DNA from: Chrysoperla carnea
Taxonomy: Eukaryota; Arthropoda; Insecta; Neuroptera; Chrysopidae
NCBI RefSeq assembly: GCF_905475395.1
Contig: NC_058338.1
Coordinates: 36,710,935 to 36,774,934, forward strand
Length of the DNA stretch: 64,000 nt
Reading direction: 5' to 3'
This document shows positions 2,512 through 64,000 of the stretch, piece by piece. How positions within the stretch are numbered: position 1 is the first letter of the stretch; every line of letters begins with the position of its first letter. The notes below the pieces were generated by a model. It was not told the origin of the DNA, searched no databases, and worked only from the letters and a program-made list of their open reading frames with translations. The translations under genes and the position numbers were made by a program.

Positions 2512-2946
2512 GGAAAACAAACAATTGACTGAGTTACTTGTTGAAATAACATTTATAGAAAGTGTTGAATTACAGTTTTGCATCCTTTTTTATAAATTAG
2601 AAGAGTTTAAAAACCAGCACAATTTGTTTTATTTGGTTTTCGGTAATTTCGAAATAAATTTCTATAATTTTTTTACGAAAATAATTCACAAGACAGGACT
2701 CAAGATCCAATTGATCTATGCTGCTCATTTACAGAATCAATTTACTTTTTTTTGATATCTCTTTTCGTTTTCAAGGTATCTTGTTGACAGACAGACGGGC
2801 AGACAAACGGAATTGAAATTATTAGCTGATTGTGTGAACACCTTTACCAAAAATTTGTTCGTAGAATCAATATTTTTAAGCGTTACAAACTTGGGTCTAA
2901 ACTTAGTATACTTTAAAATATATTTCATATATACAGGGTATAAAAA
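2512..2946 (+). repeat. Dispersed repeat family A, copy 1
   Basis: First of seven long copies in this window. It starts with the shared end ACAATTGACTGAGTTA and finishes with a CATATATACAGGGTATAAAA-type end. In between is the family hallmark block: a CAGACGGGCAGACAAACGG tract followed by TTTACCAAAAATTTGTTCGTAG and GTTACAAACTTGGGTCTAAACTTAGTATACTTT. This copy is internally shortened (about 435 bp against 480-590 bp for most others). Short open stretches on both strands here are by-products of the repeat. Confidence 0.85.
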
Positions 2947-3256
2947 TAGAATGATTAAATCGATGTTGATAAAGTTGCTGTACACTCCATCTATGAATAG
3001 TTAAAGTAGATTAAAAAATACATATAGAATGAGCAGAAAAGATATATCATTATTATAATATGCGTTTGCTGTTGTTAATATGTAAAGTTGAAATGCAAAA
3101 CTTCTGTTTTTAATAAATCTAGTAGGAATGTAAACTGTCGATAGATTGTCAACAAACTTTAAGATTTGTAATCTAACGCGTTTACATTCGTAAATTTATA
3201 AACTAACAATTTTTATCAGTCAAATAATAATTTAATAGCGGCCGGTGATTTAAGTC

Positions 3257-3850
3257 AGATGGCGCTATATTAAAAATACAAACGTTTCATATAAGATAAC
3301 CACCACATGTTGCTAAGGTTAAGGTATCACCTAAATTTATTTTGTAATAAAGGAAATACAGTGAAATTCAATTGTTCTTACTTTTTCAATTTTTGGTGTT
3401 AGCTTCTCATTTTATAGTCGAAATATTATTTTATTGCAAATTATTTGTCTATTATTTGACAGTCACAATTATCTGTTATTTCCAAACGATTCTAACAGAT
3501 AGCGATATCTGTTGACTGGATTGAGTAAGTATTCAATAGATGGCGCTATGTTAAAAATACAAACGTTTCATATAAGCTACAATTTAATCGCATAACCCCC
3601 ACGTGTTGCTGAGGCTTAGGTATAACCTAAATTTATTTTGTAATAAACGAAATACAGTGATATTCAATTGTTCTTATTTTTTCAATTTTTGGTGTTGGCA
3701 TAGCCGGCCACGTGTTACTTAGACGGAAGTATAAATTAAATGCATATTATAGTGAAGAGAATACAGTGAAATTATTCCTGCTTCAATAGTTTACTACAAT
3801 GTAATATAACAAGAACCTTAGCCACAGCAACGCGTGGCCGGGTCTGCTAG
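3257..3850 (+). mobile_element. Helitron-like 3' end with internal direct repeat
   Basis: A block beginning AGATGGCGCTAT occurs twice in direct orientation (3257-3400 and 3538-3696, about 85% alike by eye). The stretch ends in CTGCTAG at 3844-3850, followed by T. Twelve bases before that end is a hairpin, GCCAC-N8-GTGGC (3821-3838). A short GC-rich hairpin 10-12 nt before a terminal CTAG followed by T is the known 3' signature of Helitron rolling-circle transposons. No RepHel protein is encoded, so this would be a non-autonomous copy. The 5' end is not identified. Confidence 0.5.
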
Positions 3851-23610: not shown

Positions 23611-24093
23611 TTTATACCATGTAAACTAAGTTTAGTCCCAAGTTTGTAACGCTTGAAAATATTGATGCTATGAACAAAATTTTGGTGTAGGTGTTCATAA
23701 AATCACCTAATTAGTCCATTCCCGGTTGTCTGTCTGTCGTCTATCCGTCTGTCATCACGATTACTCAAAATTCGAAAAGAGATATCAAGTTGAAACTTTT
23801 ATAGCGTGCTGAGGACGTAAAAAGTGTTGTAAACCGTTAGAGATAGAACAAAAGTTTAAATGTAAAAAATTTTCCTTATAAAAAATTAAACAACTTTTAT
23901 TTGAAACATTTTTTCGTAAACATCACTATTTACCCGTGAGAGCACATATTATGCGCAAATTGTATAGTATGTATTATATGAGTACATCAGTTATATGTGT
24001 GATATTTATGTATGTGCAATGTGATAGAGTAATCAACACTGTCTATACATGGTATTTCAACAATTAACTCAGTCAACTATTTGTTTTCACTTG
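23611..24093 (-). repeat. Dispersed repeat family A, copy 4
   Basis: Minus-strand copy: the plus strand reads TTTATACCATGTAAACTAAG at the left end and AACTCAGTCAACTATTTG at the right. It contains TTTAGTCCCAAGTTTGTAAC, GGTGTTCATAAAATCACCTA and CTGTCTATACATGGTATTTC, all shared with copies 5 and 7. The CYP4G intron copy shares only the first half. Confidence 0.85.
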
Positions 24094-27000
24094 TTTATTT
24101 TATAGAATAATTTTCATTACAGCCTATGAATAATTTTTCATTCTTTAAAAATTGTTGTAGTGTAACATAATACTCTCTCTTGCAACATAACAATTTTTTG
24201 GAGACTTAACTTCCTGTTTCAAGTTTGCTCCTCAGCTTAATAATAATTCGTAGACTATTAAGAAACTATTGCCGGAACACTCATATCAATAATATAATGA
24301 AAAAATATAGAATATAATAATAACTTAAAAAAACCCGCGCACGGCGTTAAATTCAATTTTGCACGCAACGAATATAGTATTTGAGAGCTCACTGTTATGA
24401 TTAAGAATATTGCATAGGTATTTTACTCTCGTCTATACAGTTTGAGTTTCGGTGCCAAACTATGTTTCAAAAGAGGACACATTTTTATTGAAAAAATGTA
24501 TATGAATAAAATAGAATCAGATTAGACAAAATAATAGGAAGTTCAACTACAAAGTTTTAAAAACGATCAAAACTTTAAAAAACATGTATTAAGGGAACCT
24601 ACCACCTTGGTGAGTAGAAAAAAAAGAAAACTTTTTAAGATGAATATCGTCACTCCTACTGTAATTTCAGAAAATACAGAATGTTTTGAAAATCACGAAG
24701 TTAGGTAAACCTAATGAAAAACACCTTTATTTTGATCGTAGAACCTGAAAATAATAATCATTTAAAAAAAATACATCTTTGATACATTCCGCGTTTTCGG
24801 CCACCACATGTATCTTTAAAATGTACAGCCAATAACCTGCCATCTATTCCTGAAAGACAATTTTGTTAAAATCAAGTCGTTTAACCATAATCTTTCGTGT
24901 GTCCTATAGAGTGAATAACCATGTACATTCACTATTTTCTACCACAAAAACCTCAATTTTCTTCTTACAATCTAGTTTTATTAAACCATTTTTATGTTAG
25001 TTAGAACACGAGTCACTTCATTAAACATATCATTCATTAAACAAATTATTACACAAGGCTTATGTTCCCGTCGCTTCCACCATAACAATGGTAATAACTT
25101 TAATAATTATAATGGTTCTTCGTTTGTTGGAAAATCTGTGTAGGAGGTTAAGAATAATCTGATCTGACTAATTTGTTTTAACAAATCATTTGTTGTGAGA
25201 ATTTTTAGATTTTGTAAATGACCCTGCAAAACACAAATATGATAAACATGCCAATAGGTTTACAAAGTAAACCAATAAAATGTTTTCAACTTAAAAAACA
25301 ACATCTTTTACAAACTTTTTTTGTACGATGATTTAGTTAAAAAACTAGTATGAATAAATTATAAGGTTAACGATAAAATGTTTCCAAAAAAAAATTTTCA
25401 TGAAGATTATCTTTCTAATTTCAATTTTTCTATTATCCCTTATCGGCTAAGAACTTGAGTTGATTTTCCAAAGACCTTGTGCCTCAAATTAAGACCTCAA
25501 TAAGATGACTCTTTACGTATAGAACAAATTTTACTTGGATTATTTAAAAGCCCTCAAAAGATTTTCAGCTGGATTGTTTAAAATGGGCACCCGGTATATC
25601 AATTAAACAGCCATCTTGTAACAACACATACATAGAGAATAGAATGTATATACATAAACCTATAAATGTTAAATTAAATCTATTATTAATTAATTTATAA
25701 ATTAATTATGCAAATATCGATTTTATTATTTATTTTACATTTTATGTTTATTTTATTGCTTATAAAATAATTCATATAATTAATGATATTTGGGGGTGGC
25801 AGACCTTCAACTGTCAGGCAATTATGGAATTCTGGAATGTTAAAACCAATATTTATAGATGTAGAACCAGTGTACATTTTGGCAAGTCAATTTTTTATAG
25901 TCCCGGTGCTCATCAGCATACATTAACACTCATAAACAGATCTATAGGAATTGATGAAAGAGAACGTACTACTTACAATAATTTTCCAAGGAGACTTTTC
26001 TAATTACAAGAAGAAGATAACGAAGTTGTTAGACTAAACATAGCTTATCAATGACAGCACAACGTATTAATTAAGAAGGAGCATAGTAGGTGGAGGGGAC
26101 ATCTAAATCGACTGCAGCGCTGTTATTTTATAAAGTTTGCAATAAATCATGCGATTTATTTAAAATACGACTAAGTTTTTGATAAAATAATTTGTTCTTT
26201 TTATACTTTAACATTATGGTAAATCTAGTTATCTTATTTCTGCACTTGTACCTCGTAAGGGACTGAAAAATGTAATAATTTTGAGTAGCATGAGGGAAAT
26301 AGTTCGTAAATTCCGCGTAGCTAATATATCAATAAATTCATTTTCAATTTTTCGAAACAGTTACAATTGTTGTCTTTATCATGTTTACTCAATTACTATG
26401 ATAAAATCATCAAAAACCGGTAGCATGAGGGTTACCGTTTAGTAAAAGAATTGAAAGAAGTTTCAATTTCTAAGAAGAAAACTCGGCTATATGCTTTGAA
26501 GAATATTTTGAAAGTACTTTGCTAAACAAAAATAAGTAGATATCATTTTAACTCGCAAATATCTCTTGTCTTCAGTCAACACGGAAATACTTTTCACGTC
26601 TTCTAAGGTAACAATATTAAATTTTCCGAGCACCATAGAAGAGAGCTCACCGGCTATGGGAATTTTCGTAGAACAACAGCCTCTCAACTGTGTATTCTTG
26701 AAATAATGAATTGGCAAAATGTATACACATTTACAAAGTAAAAGAAAATTACTAGACTGAAGTAAACACGTTGATGCTGAGGCTGTTGATGTTCTTATAA
26801 CAAGTAAATATTTCTTGACTCAAATACGTAGTACTAACTTCAGAAATTAGACTCTTTAGTGTCGCAATTACAACTGTTGTGATCCAAAAATAGATTTTTA
26901 GTGTAGGCCAGCTCAATCATAGCCGAAGTTAGCTTTTTCTCACACCTACACTAAGGTTGACACTGCTCCCGTGAAAATAAAGAAAACTACTTTTTTAATA

Positions 27001-44347: not shown

Positions 44348-45071
44348 GCAGAACAGGCTTAATCACTTGAAGAATAGAGAGCACGAGAACTGTCTCAGTG
44401 TGTCGGGATATATTCCACTTAGAGGTACTACCCACATAGGACATATACGGGTTTAAAATGACCCAATGGTGTTGAAGTGAGCCGCTTATGCCTGCGCAAA
44501 TACTATTACTATGACAATAATTAAAGTTTACGAATGCAACGCTGGCAAATGTACAGAAATTTTGCAAATTAAATTTTATTGAATCGATTGAGTAACATTG
44601 ACTCTAGTTTATTTTAAGGTTATTTGGTATCATTAACATACATTAACATACAATAAATAATATTATACCATCGCAAATTGTTTGGAAATTATTTTTACTC
44701 GCAATATTTTTTAAATGTCTGTTTAGCGCTTCTTTAAACTTGCCGCTTTTGTAAATATTTTAAAAAGCAAAGAAAAAGAAAATTAACACTAATTTCTATC
44801 AAGAGTGTGGCATGGATCGACATATGAGAACGGAAAATTTTGAACCATAATTTATTCTATGGGTTACATTTTAACCTAGTAGAGGCTCGCTTCGCTCGCC
44901 TGAAAATTTGTATTATATATTTTTCTTATATGGCTGTAGCAAATAAATTAGCACTCTTTCTTTCATCATTTTCATTTCAATAATCAAGTAATTCCATAAC
45001 GGGTCGCAATACTGTAAAATAGTCTGAAAATATTGTGTCAATATCCATAGATAATAAATATTTATATTATT
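44348..45071. other. Intergenic; possible Helitron-like end
   Basis: 44328-44567 on the minus strand is open for 79 codons but unrecognised. At 44877-44900 the minus strand reads AGGCGAGCGAAGCGAGCCTC followed by TACTAG, a pattern seen at 3' ends of some Helitron-like repeats. Otherwise nothing is recognised. Confidence 0.35.
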
Positions 45072-45635
45072 TATTATACCATGTATATGAAATATTCCAA
45101 GGTATATACTAAGTTTAGTCCCAAGTTTGTAACGCTTAAAAATATTGATACTATGAACAATTTTGGTATAGGTGTTCATAAAATCATCTAATTAGTTCAT
45201 TTCCGGTTGTATGACTGTCTGTCTGTTCGTTTGTCATCACGATTACTCAAAAACGAAAAGAGATATCTGAAATTTTTATAGCGTGCTTAGGACGTTAAAA
45301 GTGAGGTCGACTTCGTAAATAAGCAACATAGATCAATTGGGTCTTGGGTCCGTAGGACCCATCTTGTAAACTAGAGATAGATCAAAAGTTTAAATGTAAA
45401 AAATGTTCCTTATAAAAAAATAAACAACTTTTGTTTGAAACATTATTTTGAAAACATCACTGTTTACCCGCGAGAGCGCAAATTATGCGTAAATTGTATA
45501 TAGCGTAAATTGTATATGTATTATATGGGAATATCAGTTATGTATGTGTGACGTGTATGTATGTGTAATGTGATGGAGTAATCAGCACTGTCTATACATG
45601 GTATTACAACAATTAACTCAGTCAATTGTTTGTTT
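45072..45635 (-). repeat. Dispersed repeat family A, copy 5
   Basis: Near full-length minus-strand copy (564 bp). Left end TATTATACCATGTATATGAA, right end AACTCAGTCAATTGTTTG. It keeps every internal landmark: TTTAGTCCCAAGTTTGTAAC, GGTATAGGTGTTCATAAAAT, TCTTGGGTCCGTAGGACCCA, AACATCACTGTTTACCCGCG and CACTGTCTATACATGG. It makes a good reference copy for building the family consensus. Confidence 0.9.
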
Positions 45636-47535
45636 TATTTTATATTATAATATTTATATTATTTGTATTTTATAATTAGTTGCCTATGGTCAATATCAAT
45701 ATCTCCAAGTCTACAAGTTTTATTTGTTTATGTTTAAATAATAAATAGTAAATAAAATCGGTATTGAATTAATTAATTTATAAATTGTAAAACAAAATAA
45801 TTTTTTTTCCTCAAGTAGGAAAAGTACTATCCGCGCAATAAATAGTAAATTTCCCATTACACGAATTAAACTTACTACATACACTTAAATTACTGCAGTT
45901 TGTGTGCGACAAGTTTTGAGATATTTAATGGGTAGGGGAAATGAAAGTAAATCGGTCCCAGCAGGTAAAACGGACCAGGCTTATAACTTCTAAACTAATT
46001 GTCCCATCTGTTAGTTTCTTAGACTGACATATTAGACGGCCTGCGTCCGGTCAGCGTACTCAAAGTTGCAATTCATTGCCATAGGCTATTATCGAAATAA
46101 TAATAATAGTTTTCGTGTTTTGATGTAAAAAAGCAAATTTAGATTAGCCTTCACTTCCATTATGTTTCTTATAATGATTTTTATGTGTGATCAAATGACT
46201 TCTCATGGTTCCAACAAGTGTTAAGTAAAGGAAATAAGAAAACATTATCGTCGGCATTGCCGTAAATTTTCACTTTATGTTGCTAGCCTCCCAAAATGCA
46301 AAATGGGTCGAGGAAGCGGTCAATGTGGATCTCCTTTAAGAAAAAAGAAAATTTCATCAAAAAAAAAAAATCGATGAATGTGTCCTATATTGCACAAGTA
46401 AAGGGTGGGTGCGATGCATAATTCGCTTTTTATGAGCTTATTCAAAATTCACCCGCTTGCTAGCATCGATACTAGTGATGATTATAGTTACAATTTTCCC
46501 AACTTGGAGTCTACTAATCGATTAAGTTTCTGTCGAAACTATGAAAAATTGGATTGTGTATACAGGTTGTCCCAAAATTATGATTAAAGAATTACAAGTT
46601 TTAAACGATAATAACTTGTTTAACTTAAATACAACACACGGTTTATGTCAACAATAAATGTAAATTGCAAACCGTTAAATACCAAATACCATCAACTTTC
46701 CTATAGCTAACTGTGCATGTTTTCATGAAAAACGCACATTTTTAGAATCGAACTGTAAATTTAATATTCATGAATGATATCAAGTCGACTATGGATCTTT
46801 ACTTGAAAAGTCAAAATATTTTTCGCAGTTCAGTTATTCGTTTGGGCTGTATACTATAGTAGCTCTTTATGATTTTTGTTTACTTTATAATCCAAAATGA
46901 AAGTTTATTCAAGAGAAAAACAGATCAACATTATTTTAATTTTAGGAGAATACCAGTTTACAGTTTTTTTCATTTCCTGTCTTTTAATGGAAGAATTCTT
47001 TTAATGGCCTTTTCATGCTGAACACTTCTAGTTTATCCAAACTGAGCCAACAATGCACAGCCAATGAGGCTCTATCATCGTTTAAAATTTGAAATACTGT
47101 AGCCATAACTTTTTACTTACGTAGCCATAAGTATTTTATATTAAACAATTAAAAAATTAATTTTAAAACATTTAAGATAAATTAAAATAAAAGAAATATT
47201 AAAAAACCAAGAGACGGAAGAATTTGGTATTCTAATTTATGGGATTCCAGCATTTTCTTTATATGTCTATGATATACTGGTTTTCTTGCTATGAGTTGAA
47301 TGTAACTTCGATACGCGTTGAGCTATACACAGCACACACAGCAACAGCATAACCATCGTAAAGCAAGCTACCACATTTGCAAGAACCATATAACACCTAT
47401 AACAACTCATTCTTACACGCATGGCTTAACGCGTGTACTCTGTCATACTCGTGGGAGATGCCTATGCTGAGATGTAAACTAAACATAGTGTATATGAAAA
47501 ACGCTATAGATCTACACTAATTATAATATAAAGAG
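45636..47535. other. Intergenic; one unexplained exon-like frame
   Basis: AT-rich. 46405-46587 (60 codons, +) contains a stretch with balanced composition and no low-complexity runs that could be an exon, but I recognise no family and see no partner exon. 47280-47470 is less AT-rich without clear features. Confidence 0.35.
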
Positions 47536-55547: not shown

Positions 55548-57615
55548 ATGAAAGATGATATAAATAATGGTTTATTATTTATAAATGAATATTTTATACC
55601 ACCCGAAATATTATCGTTAATATTAAGCAATGTGGATGTTAAAAACTTATACAAACATTGTACATTGGTATGTAAACTATGGAATGACATCATTAAAAGT
55701 TGTGTTTGGAAGTTAAAATGTGATCGGCAATTATTAAAGACTGATCATTCACAATTATTCCGACAAAAACAACATCCACATTATGTATATCAGGCGTTAT
55801 GTGTTTTTAAACAATCATTTTATACAAATTTAATACAAAATGCGTGTGGTTTAGATGGTTTTAACCATTGGATAATTGACAAAAATGGTGGCCATCGTTT
55901 TATAATTGAAGATTGTATATTAGTTGATACAAATTTTCGTGAAATCAATGATGAAACTGTTAGTAAATGTTTTGTAACATCCTACAGACAATGTAGTAAA
56001 TTACAAATGATAGATTTATGTGGTAGAGGTGGTGTGACACAACAATTTATTGATGAATACCAGCCACCGATTTACGTGAGTGAATGGTATGGAAGTCGAC
56101 GTGATTGTGGATGCATGTATCAATTACGTGTGATTTTATTTGATAAAGATTATCAACCATTTCGTCGATGCAATTGCAATTACTCATTTTCTTATAGAGT
56201 TCCTGGATGGGAGGGTGGTTTTTATCAAAAAGTATGCATAACTTATTTATATTACATTAGGTGGAATAGGGTAATTGTGTCTCTTTCTCCCTTAATTCCT
56301 CTTTTAGTTAATTTGGCGAGATAATAATTTCAATGTACAGAAAAGAACGTTCTTACAAGAAAGAATATATCGCGCAAATGAGTACGAAGCAACACGAAAG
56401 ATTTGCGAGTTAGTGGCCAAATTTAATATTTATTTTTTAGCTTACAGAATATCCGTGTATGACCACCTAATATCTCGAAGGGTAAAAATCGAGGAACATC
56501 TCTTTTGATACTTAATCCTTAATATCATAATGAATGCATACGTATATGAATGTAGAATATATAATGCATGTCGTTCGAACCAATTTTTCCTCCTCAACAC
56601 TTTTTTTTAATAGAATTGTAATAATAATAATCTTGTGTTTTTTCATTTCTGAGTGGCTAATATCTGTTACTAAAATTAACTTTGGAAGATATTGTTTCCG
56701 TAATAGACCTTTTTCATGAAAAACAAATGCTTTTTGATAATTTTTTATGAAAATATAGGTCGAGTATAGCCTGTAACTCAAAAATTACGCATTTTTAACA
56801 ATAAAAACACTATGAAAAAAATTGTTAAAAAGTTACAATATTTGAAATTTTAAAACGATTTTTTTTTTTTGCTCCACCGCACACGTGATGTGTGATGTCA
56901 ATCCGACAAGCAATGACAATAAAACAGTGTCAACAGTTGTATTAATATATCACTATTATCAACTTTAAATGACGTCAAACCAACCTTCGTGTAACATCGT
57001 GTGTTTCCGGATAGTTTTCGCCAATTTGAATTTTAATGATTTTCATTGTCTGTTTTCTCGGACATATGGCTTCAAAAAAATCGGGGGAAAAAATTAGCCC
57101 ATTTATCAAGACATTTACTTTCATTTAAAAAAAAGAAAAAAAAATGTGAAAAAGGTCTTTTGTAATAATAATAATCTTGTGTTTCTTCCTTTCTGAATGG
57201 CTAATAACTGTTACTAAAATTAACTTTGGAAGATATTGTTTCCGTAATTCAGGTTATCATTTGTTATCAATAACTAAATATTTGTAATTTATAGGTTGAA
57301 TATGTCTTTAAAAATTATGGCCCAAATGTACGATACATATTTTTTCATTATATTGGTAAAGATACACAATTTTGGGCTGGACATTATGGTAGTAAATTTA
57401 CAAATGCTAATGTACAATTACTGCTTCCTGGTGATACATCTAAAGATCATCTGATTGATTTACATTCACAGCAATCATATCATGAACAATGTGGGTGTGG
57501 TTGTAATGATAGCGATTGTAGGCAACAAAAAAATGATTGTCAATCACTAATGTATATGTTTGATAAGACATTAATTGCAGCTGTACAGAAATATAAAGAT
57601 GAATATTTCAAATAA
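55548..57615 (+). CDS. F-box protein with FBA domain (FBXO2/6/44-like)
   Basis: Probable substrate-recognition subunit of an SCF (Skp1-Cullin1-F-box) ubiquitin ligase. Two exons, 55548-56231 and 57295-57615, join in phase to 334 aa. The F-box spans about residues 17-54 (I-P-P-E-I-L-S-L-I-L at its start, L-V-C-K-L-W-N later). The FBA domain (about 100-275) shows F-V-T-S-Y-x-x-C, L-x-D-L, W-Y-G-S-R-R-D-C-G-C-x-Y-Q-L-R-V, then in exon 2 V-R-Y-I-F-F-H-Y-I-G-K-D-T-Q-F-W-A-G-H-Y-G. In mammalian FBXO2 a Y-W pair at this site contacts N-glycan chitobiose. Here it is F-W, so glycan binding is possible but unproven. A C-terminal extension with C-G-C-G-C-N-D-S-D-C follows the FBA domain and is not typical. 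Poly(A) signal AATAAA at 57736. The exact human paralogue cannot be assigned. Confidence 0.88.
56705..57158. mobile_element. TIR-bounded insertion in the F-box intron, flanked by 88-bp repeats
   Basis: Perfect 12-bp inverted ends, AGACCTTTTTCA at 56705-56716 and TGAAAAAGGTCT at 57147-57158. The element is 454 bp, has no coding capacity, and its interior is less AT-rich (CACCGCACACGTGATGTGTG). Immediately outside, the same ~88-bp sequence occurs on both sides in direct orientation: 56616-56704 and 57160-57247, about 94% alike. It sits within the single F-box intron (56232-57294). Confidence 0.7.
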
Positions 57616-58461
57616 TTATTTGATAATGAAAAAAATGTATATTTTTATAGAGAATGTAGAAGTCTTTATTTTATCCATATTAATGCGACAACGTAACACG
57701 TTTACACGCTCTCCATTTGTGTCAAACCGAAACAAAATAAAAAATTGTTTTAAAAATAAAAAAAGTAATTGAACATTTTTTCATCAGAAACTCTTTACTT
57801 CAGACTACAGAGAATTTTTTTCTGCATTAAATTACAGGAGTTATTTTTTTCTTTGCCTAGGTTCGTATCACGTACTGAATGTAAATGCACAAATCCTTAC
57901 AAAAATAGGCGGGGGAAGTGCCTCCATTTTAAGGAAAGCCGTTTTGTGCTATATCTCCACAACCGCGCACTTTAAACCAAAAAAGGCAATAGTCCATATT
58001 GTAGATAATTAAATTTCCTCTTTTTTGTACAATTTTTTTTTTTTTTTTTTTGTACCGCTAACCGTTTATGACTTATACGACTATGACGATTTACTTATTG
58101 ATTATTTGATCGATATCCCTTCTAATATTTGTTTAAACAATAAAATGCTAATTACTTAACTTTTAAAGCTACAAATTTTCTTTCTAAAATCAATATTTAT
58201 GAAGTTATAACGCGTTTGATGTTGCAAAGAGTACCTCCCAAAAAAGTATTACGTTAAAGTCGGAAGATTGAATATATCTAGGGCTAAGTATCTTAGTTGC
58301 TGTATCGTGTGGCAATAAAAACAATATTTACGGGAAAAATATTTATTATTCTGTTACATAGAAATTACAAGACAGAAAATTCGTGAAATAAAAACGATAG
58401 TAAATGAATAAGCATAATTAAATTATTTTAAGAGTAATAATGATAATGACAAATACACCGT
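57616..58461. other. Convergent intergenic spacer, F-box gene and mago
   Basis: Holds both 3' UTRs. AATAAA at 57736 serves the F-box gene. TTTATT at 58342-58347 is an AATAAA on the minus strand, about 115 bp past the mago stop. A run of about 21 T lies at 58031-58051, which is poly(A) on the mago strand, 410 bp beyond its stop codon. Confidence 0.55.
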
Positions 58462-58905
58462 TTATATGGGTTTAATTTTGAAATGAAGTCCGATTAAGGA
58501 AAACACAAGGCACTTCAAATCTTGTACTAAATAGTAAAAGCATCGTAGTCCTTCTGGATCTTTCGACTGATTAACATCAACAAGTGATCCAGTTTTAGAT
58601 GTTGTAAACGAAATATGTTCATCACCAATAACAATTTCCAGTTCTTGTCGACCAACTCGATCAGGTTGCGGCCAATGCGCATCATCTTCTTGCATTATTT
58701 CTGAATCGTGGATAATTCTTTTTAATTCTTCCATAACAGAATTGTGTACATATGCTTCTTTTCGAATCATCGTATCATTTTTGTAGTTTGAATTATTGGC
58801 ATACCTTAGTTTACCATCAGGTCGAAATTCGAATTCTAAAAATTCATGGCCAAATTTACCTTTATGACCAACGTAATAACGTATGTAAAATTCTGAATCA
58901 CTCAT
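58462..58905 (-). CDS. mago: Mago nashi, exon junction complex core protein
   Basis: Full 147-codon single-exon frame, the same length as Drosophila Mago (human MAGOH 146). Mago binds Y14/Tsunagi; the pair locks eIF4AIII on spliced mRNA in the nuclear exon junction complex and is needed for oskar mRNA localisation in fly oocytes. The sequence is nearly colinear with the family: start [20 protein letters not shown], then [20 protein letters not shown], middle S-E-I-M-Q-E-D-D[16 protein letters not shown], and end [13 protein letters not shown]. No frameshift or stop, so it looks functional. No intron interrupts it. A retrocopy is possible but unproven. It converges on the F-box gene. AATAAA (minus) at 58347-58342. 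Confidence 0.96.
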
Positions 58906-59376
58906 TTAAAACCGATTCAAGTATAATAAAATGAATAAAACGCTTCACAAGCAGACGCAAATATCAGTTTTAGGTTAACGATAGTTTTCGTTTATAGACT
59001 TTTGCAAATTGCAATACTCACTGACAACTAACAAAGCTGCAAGAATAATCACGAATATTTTTTGGACAGAGCTACTGCACAAGTAGATAGTGTGGAGTAG
59101 ATCACAGACCTATATTAAAATTAGATAGACATTAAAAGCACAGATCCTTCGACGTTTGTTCTTCATTGTTTGATTATTAAATTAAAATTATTTGTTCGAT
59201 TGTTGTTTATTTATTATTTATTAAACAATTATTTGTCATTAAGTTAGCCCCCATACTATTGATTTCCACTTTTTACTTCCTTAATCAAGGTATTTTAAGG
59301 AATTATTGATTGTTATTATTATTATTATTATTATATTATATAAAATTGATAGAATTTTACTTATTTTGTATAAAAA
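58906..59376. other. Upstream of mago; spacer with a dispersed block
   Basis: The mago promoter should lie here. The word TATAGGTCTGTGATCT occurs at 59099-59114 on the minus strand, about 195 bp before the ATG, and also upstream of VRK1. 59221-59300 (AAACAATTATTTGTCATTAA then GTTAGCCCCCAT) is a direct repeat of 63501-63580. A short ATT microsatellite lies at about 59311-59335. Confidence 0.5.
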
Positions 59377-59656
59377 CTACCAAATCGTATGTAAAAAATA
59401 ATTGTTCACTTTGAGCTTCGAAATTCAGTGTACATATAAATAAATACGTAATTCATAAAATCCTTAAATTTGAAAACGATTCACCGTTTACCGATTCACA
59501 GGCTCTTATGGCAGAAAGAAAATTTATATCTAAGTAAGTAAACGGTGAATCGTTTTCCAATTTTAGGATTATATGAATTATATATTTATTTTTATATACA
59601 CTGAATTTCGAATCTCAAAGTTGAAAATTATTTTTTTTACACAAGATTCGGTCAAA
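59377..59656. repeat. Foldback element, ~115-bp arms
   Basis: The inner arms are a perfect 18-bp inverted pair, AAAACGATTCACCGTTTA at 59473-59490 and its complement at 59539-59556. The arms continue outward with scattered mismatches (CACTGAATTTCGAA / TTCGAAATTCAGTG) to about 59377 and 59656. The loop is 48 bp. It is a MITE-like hairpin abutting the large palindrome. Confidence 0.75.
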
Positions 59657-59892
59657 CCTCCTTAATAAGAAAAGAAAAATCTCTGTTAATTTGTTTTATG
59701 AAAATGTACAATATGATTTTTCATGAAAACATTTTGTTTTGTAATAAACAAATAAAATTCGTGATATAAATTTTAAGTTTTGTTTTATTTTTTAAATATT
59801 CTATCCTATTTGTCTTTCAGAATAAAATTATGAATGAATTAATTTTTTAGTGAAGGTAAGTATTAACTTAATTATGTCCTGAAATATAAGTT

Positions 59893-59960
59893 GGGTGGCT
59901 GTGTGGGTATAGCATTTGCCTCTCATGCCAAGGTATGCTGGTTCGTACCCTGGTGTGGTT
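59893..59960 (+). pseudogene. tRNA-like module, left palindrome arm
   Basis: About 68 nt with a tRNA layout: GGTGGCTGTGTGGGTATAGC as a D-arm/A-box region, CCTCTCATGCCAAGG as a possible anticodon arm, and a T-arm with B-box GCTGGTTCGTACCCTGG. The acceptor stem is poor. It reads as a tRNA-derived SINE head rather than a working tRNA. A mirrored copy lies at 63783-63849. Confidence 0.5.
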
Positions 59961-60249
59961 AATATTTTTACTTTTAAATTAAATGAATTTTTCCTAATGT
60001 TAAAAAATTTCCGCTCTTTTTATAATTTAAATTATCTATATAACCCGCCCACTTGCTATAAATAACGTCAGTTATACATATGTCATAAATCACTATTCTG
60101 TCAGGGGGTGGGAATTTAAATAATCATAAATATTAAACTTCTTATTTATATATATAAACATTATTTCACTCTTTTAAATCATGTTGTCCTGTTACAAAGT
60201 ATTAAAAATATGAACAAAAATGCCTTATTTATGCTAAAATATGAAACTT

Positions 60250-60428
60250 TTTAATAGGAGAACATGTCTATAGTTTATCTCACTCATATTCTCCTATTAT
60301 AAGATTTTAAAATTTGTATTTATAAAATAAAAAATCGCTGTTAAGACTAAAATTTGAAATTTTGTAACAGGAGAACATGCTATATATTTTATTCCACTTT
60401 TTTATAACATATAACATATTCGCCTATT
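60250..60428. repeat. Two mini-foldbacks with AGGAGAACATG ends
   Basis: 60253-60299 runs from AATAGGAGAACATG to CATATTCTCCTATTA, about 47 bp. 60365-60428 runs from AACAGGAGAACATG to CATATTCGCCTATTA, about 64 bp. Both have the same inverted ends and different short interiors. Related units occur at 62351-62587 and 62931-62994. Confidence 0.6.
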
Positions 60429-60919
60429 AAAAAATATTAAAAAAATACTAATTTTACTTGAGCTCCGCGATCTTAGCACCTCATGTGCGGAATTTCGATT
60501 GACCAATTATACCATCTGAAAGGTCAGAAATTGGTCATAAAAGGTCAGTTGGTCTCATTAATTGGTCAGCATCAGAAAATTTTTTATTAAAGATTAAAGT
60601 TTTTCAAGGTCAATTAATAAGTTTAGCACCTCATTCGCAGAAAAAATAAAAAACTCCACCTATGCGCGATCGGGAAGCATTCGCTGATAATTGTTCAGCT
60701 AATATAAATAATTGGTCAGTTTAATTTAATATTTAAAAAAATTAAAAAAGTTGTCTCTGTCGTAACGCGCATGCTTTGAGCCGGATGGTTTTATCAGGGC
60801 AGTGAGTACTTACGCACAGCTCTTCACTATAAACCAGACAGAGTAGGGGAAATATTTTTTTTATAATTTTTTACTTGTAAAAAAATGAATTTTTCCTTTT
60901 ATTTAAATTTTTCACTCTT

Positions 60920-61445
60920 TTTATACCATGTATATATGAAATATACATAGTATATTAAGTTTAGTCCCAAGTTTGTAACGCTTAAAAATAATGATGTTAG
61001 TATAAAAATTTTGTCATAGGTGTTCGTAAAATCACCTAATTAGTCCATTTCCGGTTTTCCGTCCGACCATCCGTCCGTCTGTGGACACGATAACTCAAAA
61101 ACGAAAAAAGATATCGAGCTGAAATTTTTACAGCGTACTCAGGACGTAAAAAATGAGGTCAAGTTCGTAAATGAGCATCATAGGTGAATTGGGTCTTGGG
61201 TCCGTAGGACCCATCTTGTAAACCGTTAGAGATAGAACAAAAGTTTAAATGTAAAATTTTTTTTCATAAACATCACTGTTTACTCGTGAGGGCGCCAATT
61301 AGGCGGAAATTTTATAATAGGTACTATACTTGATTATCAGTTATGTATGTGTCACATGTTTGTATGAGTAATGTGATAAATAAATCAACACTGACTATGC
61401 ATGGTATTTCAACAATTAACTCAGTCAATTGTTTGTTTTCACTTG
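60920..61445 (-). repeat. Dispersed repeat family A, copy 7, inside the palindrome
   Basis: Near full-length minus-strand copy. Left end TTATACCATGTATATATGAA, right end AACTCAGTCAATTGTTTG plus TTTTCACTTG. It has TTTAGTCCCAAGTTTGTAAC, GTCTTGGGTCCGTAGGACCC and AACATCACTGTTTACTCGTG. It has no inverted partner, so it inserted into the palindrome's centre after the palindrome formed, or was part of the original spacer. Confidence 0.88.
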
Positions 61446-62128
61446 TATTATATATATTTGTACATATGTCACCTATAAAAAATTTGAATGAATAATAATA
61501 ATGGTTATTTTATATAGTAAAAAATCAATTTTCGGGATAACGTTTTCAAATTAATATAAATAAATAAATATCGTTATATATTTTAAATTTTGTTTTATTT
61601 TATTCTATCCCATTTTTCCTTTCAGAACAAAATTATTAATTAACTAATTAATTTTTTTTTAGTAAAGGTACAAACAAATTCTTATAAAATATAGGTGAGA
61701 TAAAGAAGTTGGATTGTAAATACGTAATATTCTTTTTGGATTTTCATTTTATTTTTGTGTGGTATGTGGTTTGTAAAAAAAAAGTTGATGCAAAAAAATT
61801 TTTTTAAGATGAAATTAATTATATGGAATTATGTGCAAGTAATTCGTAAATAGTTTTTATGTATTTTGATTTCATTTAAATAAAGTTGAAAACTCAAACC
61901 CTGTTTTTATTTTATTTTTCCCCATCTCTCTGTAGCTATACAATATTATTTCAGTTAAAAATAGGTAAGTATTTCGAACTTCACGATAGGTAAGTATTTC
62001 AAACTTCGTTTGCCATTTTTTTTTGTAATAATACTACTCAAAATTTTCCGAAAATGAGTTTTACTTTTTGTTATAATTTAAGAAAGTCGAAAATATGAAT
62101 ATAATTATTTATTAATACGAATAACAGA

Positions 62129-62200
62129 GCCCTAATGGTATAATGGTTAGCGTATCTGACTTCGAATAAATAGTCCCTTGGTTCGAAACTAGGTGAGGAC
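62129..62200 (+). pseudogene. tRNA-like sequence resembling tRNA-Arg
   Basis: 72 nt with a clear A-box (TGGTATAATGGTTAGCG), CTGACTTCGAA at the anticodon loop position (TCG, as in tRNA-Arg) and a T-arm CTTGGTTCGAAACTAGG whose five pairs all form with two G-T wobbles. The acceptor stem makes only 5 of 7 pairs and the anticodon stem 4 of 5. It is probably a tRNA-derived SINE head or a decayed gene; a functional tRNA is less likely. Confidence 0.5.
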
Positions 62201-62320
62201 ATATATTAAAAAAATGTTCATTAAATCTTTTAAGCAAAATCTGATTTTTATTTTCATTTTTTTTCAAATTTCCACCACAGCATGTTTGCCTAGTAAATGA
62301 TGAAAAAATTAGTTTTTTTT

Positions 62321-62619
62321 CGTTCAAAAACTTCAATTTTTTTCACATTTCTACTAGGAGAACATCACGGGCGGACGGAATAAGTAGTACCTGATAGCAA
62401 GGTAATTGTTGTCACCTCGTAAGTCAGAAAGTTAGTGGTCTGCACACCCGTGTTTGGTGAGTGTGACCTCTAGTGGGCAGACCAATAACTTTCTGCCAAA
62501 ATAAAATTTTAGACTTTCGGGGTGAAAACACTTACTCACCTTTCTCCTTATCAGGAACTACTAATTCCCACTTATGTTCTCCTAGTACAAATGTTGAAAA
62601 AATTGAAAATTTTTTCGAA
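62321..62619. repeat. ~300-bp foldback near the palindrome centre
   Basis: Nested inverted pairs: CTAGGAGAACAT (62354-62365) with ATGTTCTCCTAG (62574-62585), GGAATAAGTAGTACCTGAT (62377-62395) with 62550-62568, and CAGAAAGTTAGTGGTCTGC (62425-62443) with 62477-62495 (one mismatch). The arms extend outward through a T-rich/A-rich stretch. Its ends carry the same AGGAGAACAT motif as the mini-foldbacks nearby, making it the longest member of that group. Confidence 0.75.
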
Positions 62620-62930
62620 ATTATATTATTTTTTGAATATAAAATTAAACTGACCAATTATTTATATTAGCTGACCAATTATCAGCGAATGCTTCCCGAT
62701 CGCGCATAGGTGGAGTTTTTTCAATCTTTAATAAAAAATTTTCTGATGCTGACCAATTAATGAGACCAACTGACCTTTTATGACCAATTTCTGACCTTTC
62801 AGATGGTATAATTGGTCAATCGAAATTCCGCACATGAGGTGCTAAGATCGCGGAGCTTTTTACTTGCTTTTTTGTTGCAAATGTTGTAAAATTTATTTAT
62901 TCTTGTCAAATGAAATTTTATAAGATTTTG

Positions 62931-62994
62931 TAATAGGAGAACATGCCATTTCACAAAAAAAAAAATTAATTATGTTAGTCTCACTTTCCTATTT
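62931..62994. repeat. Mini-foldback with AGGAGAACATG end
   Basis: Starts TAATAGGAGAACATGCC and ends near CTTTCCTATTTATG, a decayed version of the inverted end. It is preceded by AAGATTTTGTAA, similar to the flank of the 60365 unit (AAATTTTGTAA). Confidence 0.45.
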
Positions 62995-63660
62995 ATGTCA
63001 TAAATCACTCTTCTGCCAGGGGTGGGAATTAAAATAACATAAAATATACCTCGCTCTCTTACCTATTCGTCGCTTTTGGTTCTCATAACAATTATCTAAA
63101 AAAATGACATTTTCTCGGCATTATAATTAATTTAATTAAAAATTAATCGGGACATTGCTAGATACGAACCGAAGTACTCTGTAAGCGGAGGCGACTAGGC
63201 TACCCATTACACCACCATATATTATAATTATCAATAATGTAATATATATACATTTTACTCACCTTTTTTTCAATCAACTTGTTTTCTTAAACTTATAAAC
63301 TTATCAATAAATGAATAATTATATCAATATTTTGTTAAAATTTTTTTCTGTTTGATATTCCTGAATTCGATGTAAAGGATAAAAGCTAAAGGTAGGTATA
63401 ATATTAATTAATTAAATAATAATAATTACACCAGAAAAATTGATAAAAATGATATTTTATTATATGTAATTGTACATATTTTGTATGTTTATTAGTTATT
63501 AAACAATTATTTGTTATTAAGTTAGCCCCCCATAATATTGATTTCCACTTTTTCCTCTTTATTCAATGTATTTTATGGAGAAGCGACAAATAAGTAAGAG
63601 AGCGTGGTATATTTTATGTTATTTAACTTCCCACCCCCTGACAGAATAGTGATTTATGAC
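62995..63660. repeat. Inverted pair flanking a tRNA-like module and a dispersed block
   Basis: 62995-63070 (GTCATAAATCACTCTTCTGC then CAGGGGTGGGAATT and CGCTCTCTTACC) is inverted at 63585-63660. A third copy of its first half is at 60081-60120. Inside are the tRNA-like sequence at 63149-63219 and 63501-63580, a direct repeat of 59221-59300 (GTTAGCCCCCCATAATATTG). Confidence 0.6.
63149..63219 (-). pseudogene. tRNA-like module, minus strand
   Basis: On the minus strand: A-box region TGGTGTAATGGGTAGCC, a CTCCGCTTACAGAG stretch at the anticodon arm position (resembling tRNA-Val TAC) and B-box CGGTTCGTATC. Stems are incomplete. It is probably a SINE-type relic. Confidence 0.4.
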
Positions 63661-63782
63661 ATATGTATAACTGACGTTATTTATAGCAAGTGGGCGGGTT
63701 ATATAGATAATTTAAACTATAAAAAGAGCGGAAATTTTTTTACATTAGGAAAAATTCATTTAATTTAAAAGTAAAAATATTA

Positions 63783-63849
63783 ACCACACCAGGATACGAA
63801 CCAGCATACCTTGGTATAAGAGGCAAGTGCTATACCCACACAGCCACCC
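63783..63849 (-). pseudogene. tRNA-like module, right palindrome arm
   Basis: Inverted copy of 59893-59960 with a handful of changes. The minus strand again gives GGGTGGCTGTGTGGGTATAG and GCTGGTTCGTATCCTGG. Preservation of this module in both arms is what makes the palindrome notable. Confidence 0.5.
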
Positions 63850-64000
63850 AGCTTATATTTCAGGATATAATTAACTTAATACTAACCTTCACTAAAAAAT
63901 TAATTAATTCATAATCTTATTCTGAAAGAAAAAATAGGATAGAATATTTATAAAATAAAACAAAATTTAAAATTTATATCACGAATTTTATTTGTTTATT

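Follow-up and report, generated by a model that had tools for sequence, protein, structure and literature searches.

What is the large palindrome at the right end of a 64,000-nucleotide window of the Chrysoperla carnea genome, and why do its arms hold units that resemble transfer RNA (tRNA) genes? We compared this window (the whole stretch analyzed, contig NC_058338.1, here C2:36710935-36774934) with the genome assembly of 559 Mb in 337 contigs. The palindrome consists of nested repeats of different age, and its two nested pairs of arms differ in origin. The outer arms are a pair of X copies in inverted orientation, X being our name for an old dispersed repeat, and the inner arms form the ends of a young nonautonomous element, Y, which inserted into the left X copy within its hairpin zone. 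In the sample of copies that we read, Y was strongly enriched in this hairpin zone, often exactly 46 nt from the outer end of a motif, CATRTTCTCCTRTTAC. A layered reading, comprising an inverted pair of old X copies, a unit X-A-X with an intervening segment A, RNA polymerase III (pol III) modules within X, a young Y insertion, and fixed-offset targeting of Y, is in our judgment quite probable.

Within the window, the outer arms match over 59809-60133/63609-63933 (94%) and 59743-59811/63932-64000 (97%). Adding the sequence to the right of the window (locus L031) extended the match to 59607-60130/64136-63613 (94.9%, 527 columns), with a further block at 59316-59429/64251-64124 (83.6%, 128 columns). 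In full, the outer arms span 59316-60130 on the left and 63613-64251 on the right, the latter reaching past the window edge. The inner arms match over 60461-60598/62720-62857 (99%) and 60648-60740/62629-62721 (97%), and the length and identity of the arms are far above chance expectation. An earlier note, made from the letters of the window alone, had described two nested inverted pairs running past the window edge, and these were present as described and longer, the outer match continuing to 64251. It had also assigned both pairs a single common centre; the centres are near each other but distinct, at ~61783 for the outer and ~61659 for the inner pair, ~125 bases apart. The parts that belong to X and to segment A are as follows.

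59316-60130, plus strand: outer left arm, belonging to the left X copy (inverted match to 64251-63613; dispersed copies)
59379-59652, no strand: palindromic insertion in X at TTAA, resembling a miniature inverted-repeat transposable element (MITE) and common to both outer arms (self-palindrome)
60170-60460, plus strand: X hairpin zone, with motif copies in both directions at 60181, 60251, 60286, 60364, and 60416 (motif scan)
62858-63478, plus strand: right half of the left X copy, resuming after Y (alignment to L009+L051 and L050+L013)
63453-63579, plus strand: segment A, a repeat of 59175-59301 (82% direct match)
63581-64000, minus strand: outer right arm, the right X copy, shortened after its arm (inverted match reaching 64251, outside the window)

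Searching the genome with the left outer arm as DNA query gave 615 candidates, of which the best 40 were scored, and identified X as an abundant dispersed repeat: the scored matches were the two window arms and 39 other near-full-length copies at 84-89% on contigs C1 to C5. For comparison of arms, we used 44 arms drawn from the window and 38 other loci (39 loci in all), forming 946 arm pairs with a mean pairwise identity of 0.887. Conservation in oriented copies runs on upstream of 59743, which the earlier note had taken as the outer boundary, and fades gradually on both sides; the X arm is therefore a piece of a longer, variably truncated repeat. Upstream of its tRNA-like module, X extends 150 bases in aligned copies and further in many. 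Weighing against the layered reading, neither clean ends nor a target duplication was found in the few copies whose ends were inspected, and the few inspected likewise had no clear 3′ tail.

The flanks examined for arm partners covered ~1.5 kb per side for most of L003-L022 and ~8 kb downstream for the rest. In the genome search that the earlier note had proposed, 34 of the 38 other X loci had no second full-length arm, two had an inverted partner (L013 and L040), and two had a direct one (L020 and L047), with partial direct partners at L044 and L041. These counts bear on the suggestion, the first in the earlier note, that the palindrome is a foldback-type DNA transposon, a single element with ~800-bp inverted ends that captured a tRNA-like short interspersed nuclear element (SINE). 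Long outer arms with inward tRNA-like units, and an inverted architecture common to the window and L013, are what such an element would have. Nevertheless, we regard it as very unlikely, given the scarcity of second arms (only two of them inverted), the gradual fading of X without a sharp end on either side, and the assignment of the inner arms to another element, Y.

Y spans 2,397 bp and is delimited by the following features.

60415-60430, plus strand: target motif copy, its first base 46 nt before Y (L031 and the Y end; 2 substitutions)
60452-60460, plus strand: left 9-bp target duplication of Y, TTTTACTTG (ends and duplications)
60461-62857, no strand: element Y (ends, target duplications, and the empty site in L009+L051)
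60461-60740, plus strand: left terminal inverted repeat of Y, the inner left arm (inverted match; genome matches)
62629-62857, minus strand: right terminal inverted repeat of Y, the inner right arm (inverted match)
62858-62866, plus strand: right 9-bp target duplication of Y, TTTTACTTG (ends and duplications)

The terminal inverted repeats are long (138 + 93 bp, at 99% and 97%), and no open reading frame (ORF) of at least 100 codons was present in Y in the ORF list. Target duplications, which the earlier note had suggested looking for, were found around this inner element. They are perfect, 9 bp long, and all different in the four of four Y copies read at both ends. Moreover, the empty site is kept in L009 joined with L051, where the two alignments overlap by exactly 9 bases. 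A query with the Y end returned 249 candidates, and the best 40 scored gave 40 full-length matches at 99-100% and one partial match at 97%. In the loci examined, Y ends were 97.1-100% identical to those of the window over the outer 138 bases, and the interiors of five copies were 97.4-99.0% identical. Y is thus much younger than X, since its ends are 97-100% alike, against a mean of 0.887 for X arms.

We then asked where Y sits. It was present in 13 of the 38 other X loci. With the offset counted from the motif's first base to the edge of Y, 9 of the 14 X-linked insertions, the window included, had an offset of exactly 46 when read directly; if Y were spread evenly across the zone, ~1.6% of positions would fall at the exact offset. 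For L005 the flank read gave 82, and its facing Y end (C4:49785724) fits the junction query without net length change. We also took 20 Y ends chosen regardless of X (the first 26 rows of Y-end matches minus 6 already known in the window or the X loci examined) and read 140 bases outside each. Twelve of these matched the X hairpin zone, L054 and L062 over only 51-60 bases; among the others, L067 adjoined a motif copy, L059 another part of an X locus, and six had no match in the X set. By eye, the L060 flank resembles Y near 62282. Eight of the 20 had offsets of 45-47: 46 in L058, L060, L062, L063, and L065; 45 in L069; and 47 in L064 and L067. In L052, L053, and L061, the flank read gave 74, 63, and 84, and the facing ends fit the junction query with no net length change; the pairing of facing ends into one Y was inferred from lengths of ~1.5-2.4 kb. 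The junction query itself, spanning motif and Y, returned 372 candidates, and all 40 of the best 40 scored spanned both. Net length change among these was zero in 31, -1 in 5, and +3 to +6 in 4, and 13 of the 40 matches began exactly at the first base of the motif.

Several observations weigh against a fixed offset. Four X-linked insertions read on one flank departed from 46 (L004 at 50, L006 at 69, L010 at 79, and L026, read in L035, at 59), and the sampled ends L054, L068, and L071 carried the motif at 54, 80, and 37. Likeness to the motif at 46 was weak in L055, L056, and L066 (ranks 4, 2, and 2 of 107) and absent in L057, L059, and L070. Because the junction list is ranked by likeness to the window and favors the expected spacing, it demonstrates that many such junctions exist and does not give their rate. 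Also weighing against the layered reading, no transposase was linked to Y: MULE-domain matches in the genome numbered 14 from 35 scored candidates, none of them shown to carry Y ends.

A shared position could also be inherited, had X and Y spread jointly as a composite, and several Y insertions do occupy the same X site. This we consider extremely improbable. No two of the four duplications read at both ends agree, which refutes joint spread for those four copies; at least three separate sites in X have been used; and Y ends are far more alike than X arms. More serious is the proposal that DNA structure guides Y to cruciform or hairpin loops, so that the offset of 46 merely reflects the size of the X hairpin. 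The hairpin zone is palindromic, with a mean of 2.4 forward and 2.4 reverse motif copies in 25 Y-free X copies; as single-stranded DNA, 60135-60460 folds better than shuffled sequences (z = -3.2); and the Y insertions lie between inverted motif copies. However, the same distance recurs in hairpins that differ in sequence and, by hand count, in length, and L060 and L067 keep 46-47 beside diverged motif copies, so we judge choice by structure quite unlikely. Recognition probably resides in the motif or the surrounding hairpin structure, because the four fully read duplications share no obvious sequence. Most likely, a protein on the motif, either the Y transposase or a host factor, would place the transposition complex at a fixed distance. 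We give about an even chance to the full proposal that Y is a eukaryotic cut-and-paste transposon with ruler-like targeting, in which a protein on the motif sets insertion 46 nt away, the motif being supplied mainly by pol III-transcribed X and also by Y, and new copies are thereby steered into other repeats.

Tn7 and Tn7-like transposons insert at a set distance from a recognized sequence, as Y does; they are bacterial and have dedicated targeting proteins, whereas none is known for Y. Target duplications of 9 bp are also a feature of Mutator-like elements, and Y has two traits of Mutator/Foldback DNA transposons, a target duplication of about 9 bp and long terminal inverted repeats. Tm1, a Mutator/Foldback family of root-knot nematodes, resembles Y in its 9-bp duplications, its composite terminal inverted repeats with internal repeats, its nonautonomous members, and its nested insertions (PMC3169594). 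However, its authors saw no target sequence preference (PMC3169594), whereas Y is concentrated in X at a fixed distance from a motif. The Mutator-like elements of maize and rice likewise share long terminal inverted repeats and nested elements with Y; they are said to favor low-copy or genic sequence and rarely to enter other elements (PMC3903597), whereas Y prefers a repeat. For Drosophila elements with terminal inverted repeats, the natural target motifs are palindromic and short, spanning 7 to 14 bp around the duplication (PMC3276498). Targeting at a fixed offset, as in Y, is a surprise worth following, and a narrow search of open-license literature, drawing on parts of the papers, found no comparable family. 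If the proposal is true, a natural eukaryotic family would choose its sites much as Tn7 does, by keeping its distance from a separate, longer motif exact to the base, and one mobile element would use another as its landing place.

Some further observations concern Y. A copy of ~1.85 kb (C1:119942301/C1:119944051) has the motif near the offset on both flanks, at 47 (L067) on one and with zero net length change on the other. The middle of the window's Y (60915-61462) contains another dispersed repeat with ~8 related stretches elsewhere in the window, for example 45071-45658 and 23613-24104, and 62350-62590 is a 240-bp unit with TACTAGGAGAACAT at one end and its reverse complement at the other, each a copy of the Y target motif. 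Twelve of the 14 MULE-domain matches lie together at C1:138.3-139.8 Mb, in the last 2 Mb of contig C1.

Why, then, do the arms hold tRNA-like units? The inward tRNA-like unit with a B-box-like stretch that the earlier note had placed in each outer arm can be seen in the sequence, and X as a whole carries two convergent units. In module 1, the A-box-like stretch is TGGCTGTGTGGG and the B-box-like stretch is GGTTCGTACCC in the left arm and GGTTCGTATCC in the right arm (judged against the box consensus); the two are 44 bases apart, start to start, and are followed by a T-run.

59893-59969, plus strand: tRNA-like module 1 of the left X copy (A-box-like stretch at 59896-59907, B-box-like stretch at 59940-59950, and T-run at 59965-59969)
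62130-62200, plus strand: a third tRNA-like stretch, differing from the others, within Y (judged by eye)
63150-63222, minus strand: tRNA-like module 2 of X, facing module 1 (sequence; divergence footprint in 28 copies)
63773-63849, minus strand: tRNA-like module 1 of the right X copy (sequence)

ARAGORN found no tRNA genes in the window and Rfam gave no tRNA match at E<=10 in 58000-64000, so a functional tRNA gene in the arms, being unrecognized by either tRNA model, was rejected. We also considered whether this slot might hold different tRNAs in different X copies, and dropped the idea, as one and the same unit occupies all 44 arms.

Divergence among copies suggests what these units may do. 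For module 1, we used 39 copies, one per locus, after dropping 5 second copies. Across the 102 columns that run from leader to T-run, the substitution fraction was 0.127, against 0.038 for the 257 columns outside, with an excess inside in 38 of the 39 copies. In 8-column bins, the fraction peaked at 0.30 just before the unit, fell to 0.06 in the A-box bin and 0.04 in the B-box bin, and the excess stopped at the T-run (0.05 and then 0.01). Module 2 behaved similarly (0.137 inside, 0.059 outside; excess in 25 of 28 copies), with a drop at its T-runs. We infer that the tRNA-like units of X are probably transcribed by pol III in the germ line, because divergence is 2-3 times faster inside them than outside. 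Against this, the A- and B-box windows show no more conservation than the whole arm (rank fractions 0.79 and 0.53), and there is a further variable stretch beyond module 2 (columns 233-248, depth 9-12).

The units might instead change fast through base composition, local structure, or old subfamily differences. They are indeed more G+C-rich than their surroundings, and inside them, variants common to at least six copies somewhat exceed the simulated number (17 seen against 11.6). We nevertheless consider this explanation unlikely. Each of the four consensus bases changes ~2-4 times faster inside the unit, so that base composition does not explain the excess; the excess terminates at the T-run in both modules; and relative to simulation, the excess sharing is stronger outside the units than inside. 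The earlier note had considered an element that uses pol III transcription. Repeats with pol III modules in an inverted pair are what we found, their mutation pattern suggesting transcription, and a single DNA transposon carrying such modules in its inverted termini was not supported.

tRNA-derived SINEs have an internal A-/B-box pol III promoter and many dispersed noncoding copies. X is like them in its A-/B-box-like promoter, recognized from sequence and divergence pattern, and in its many noncoding copies; it is unlike them in that its module is internal and two modules converge, and in that no SINE tail or target duplication was found in the few ends inspected. Raised mutation beside tRNA genes is known (Thornlow 2018, cited in PMC8113476). 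As in those genes, change around X units is highest in the immediate flanks of the pol III unit, but the tRNA gene body is kept by selection (PMC8113476), whereas most of the X body changes fast, except near the boxes. This pol III-like footprint is also worth following, and it may allow the pol III activity of repeats to be read from genome sequence alone.

X has other sequence features. At 59809-59870 in the arm, TTTCTTTCAG and AAAGGTAAGTA, 31 bases apart, resemble splice sites flanking a tiny exon; both are well conserved (0.96 and 0.97), and GGTAAGT-like motifs are repeated throughout X. Beside one X copy, at 2769-3498 in the joined coordinates of L051+L009, there is a repeat array with spacings in multiples of 84 bases.

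How the two X copies came to face each other may be indicated by L013 (C2:19.26 Mb), a second inverted X pair 17.5 Mb from the window. The junction between the shortened X arm and segment A is the same in both (91% over 159 bases) and is absent from every other locus among L001-L051, and the main blocks of the two loci align at 82-86%. Of 40 scored places, four have the end of the MITE-like insertion joined to X; two of these are the window arms, and the other two are at L009 and L013. The two most similar of the 946 arm pairs are the window's own arms (0.948) and L013's own arms (0.937), whereas identity between these loci is 0.856-0.870; the inverted pair L040 (0.895) and the direct pairs L020 (0.912) and L047 (0.867) are not unusual. 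The earlier note had allowed for a chance inverted pair, which fits poorly with arms at the top of all pairs, an inserted MITE present in both arms, and an unusual junction shared with L013. The sequence comparisons suggest that the inverted X-A-X unit has a single origin and now occupies at least two loci, and that its arms may be kept alike at each locus by gene conversion, because a unit of single origin diverging without exchange should give the opposite order of identities. Independent local duplication at the window and at L013, in place of gene conversion, is a doubtful but real possibility. In a maximum-likelihood tree with bootstrap values still unsettled, the arms were sisters in each of the three inverted pairs and in one of the two direct pairs (L020, not L047), and the low identity between the two loci also suits local duplication; the arm-to-A junction that only these two loci share speaks against it.

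Outside the palindrome, a complete intronless ORF of 147 codons (58462-58905, minus strand) adjoins it and resembles what we take to be mago nashi. ORFs at 51.6-53.6 kb presumably resemble a CYP4G cytochrome, and 56616-56704 and 57160-57248 form a direct repeat of 89 bases with 95.5% identity.

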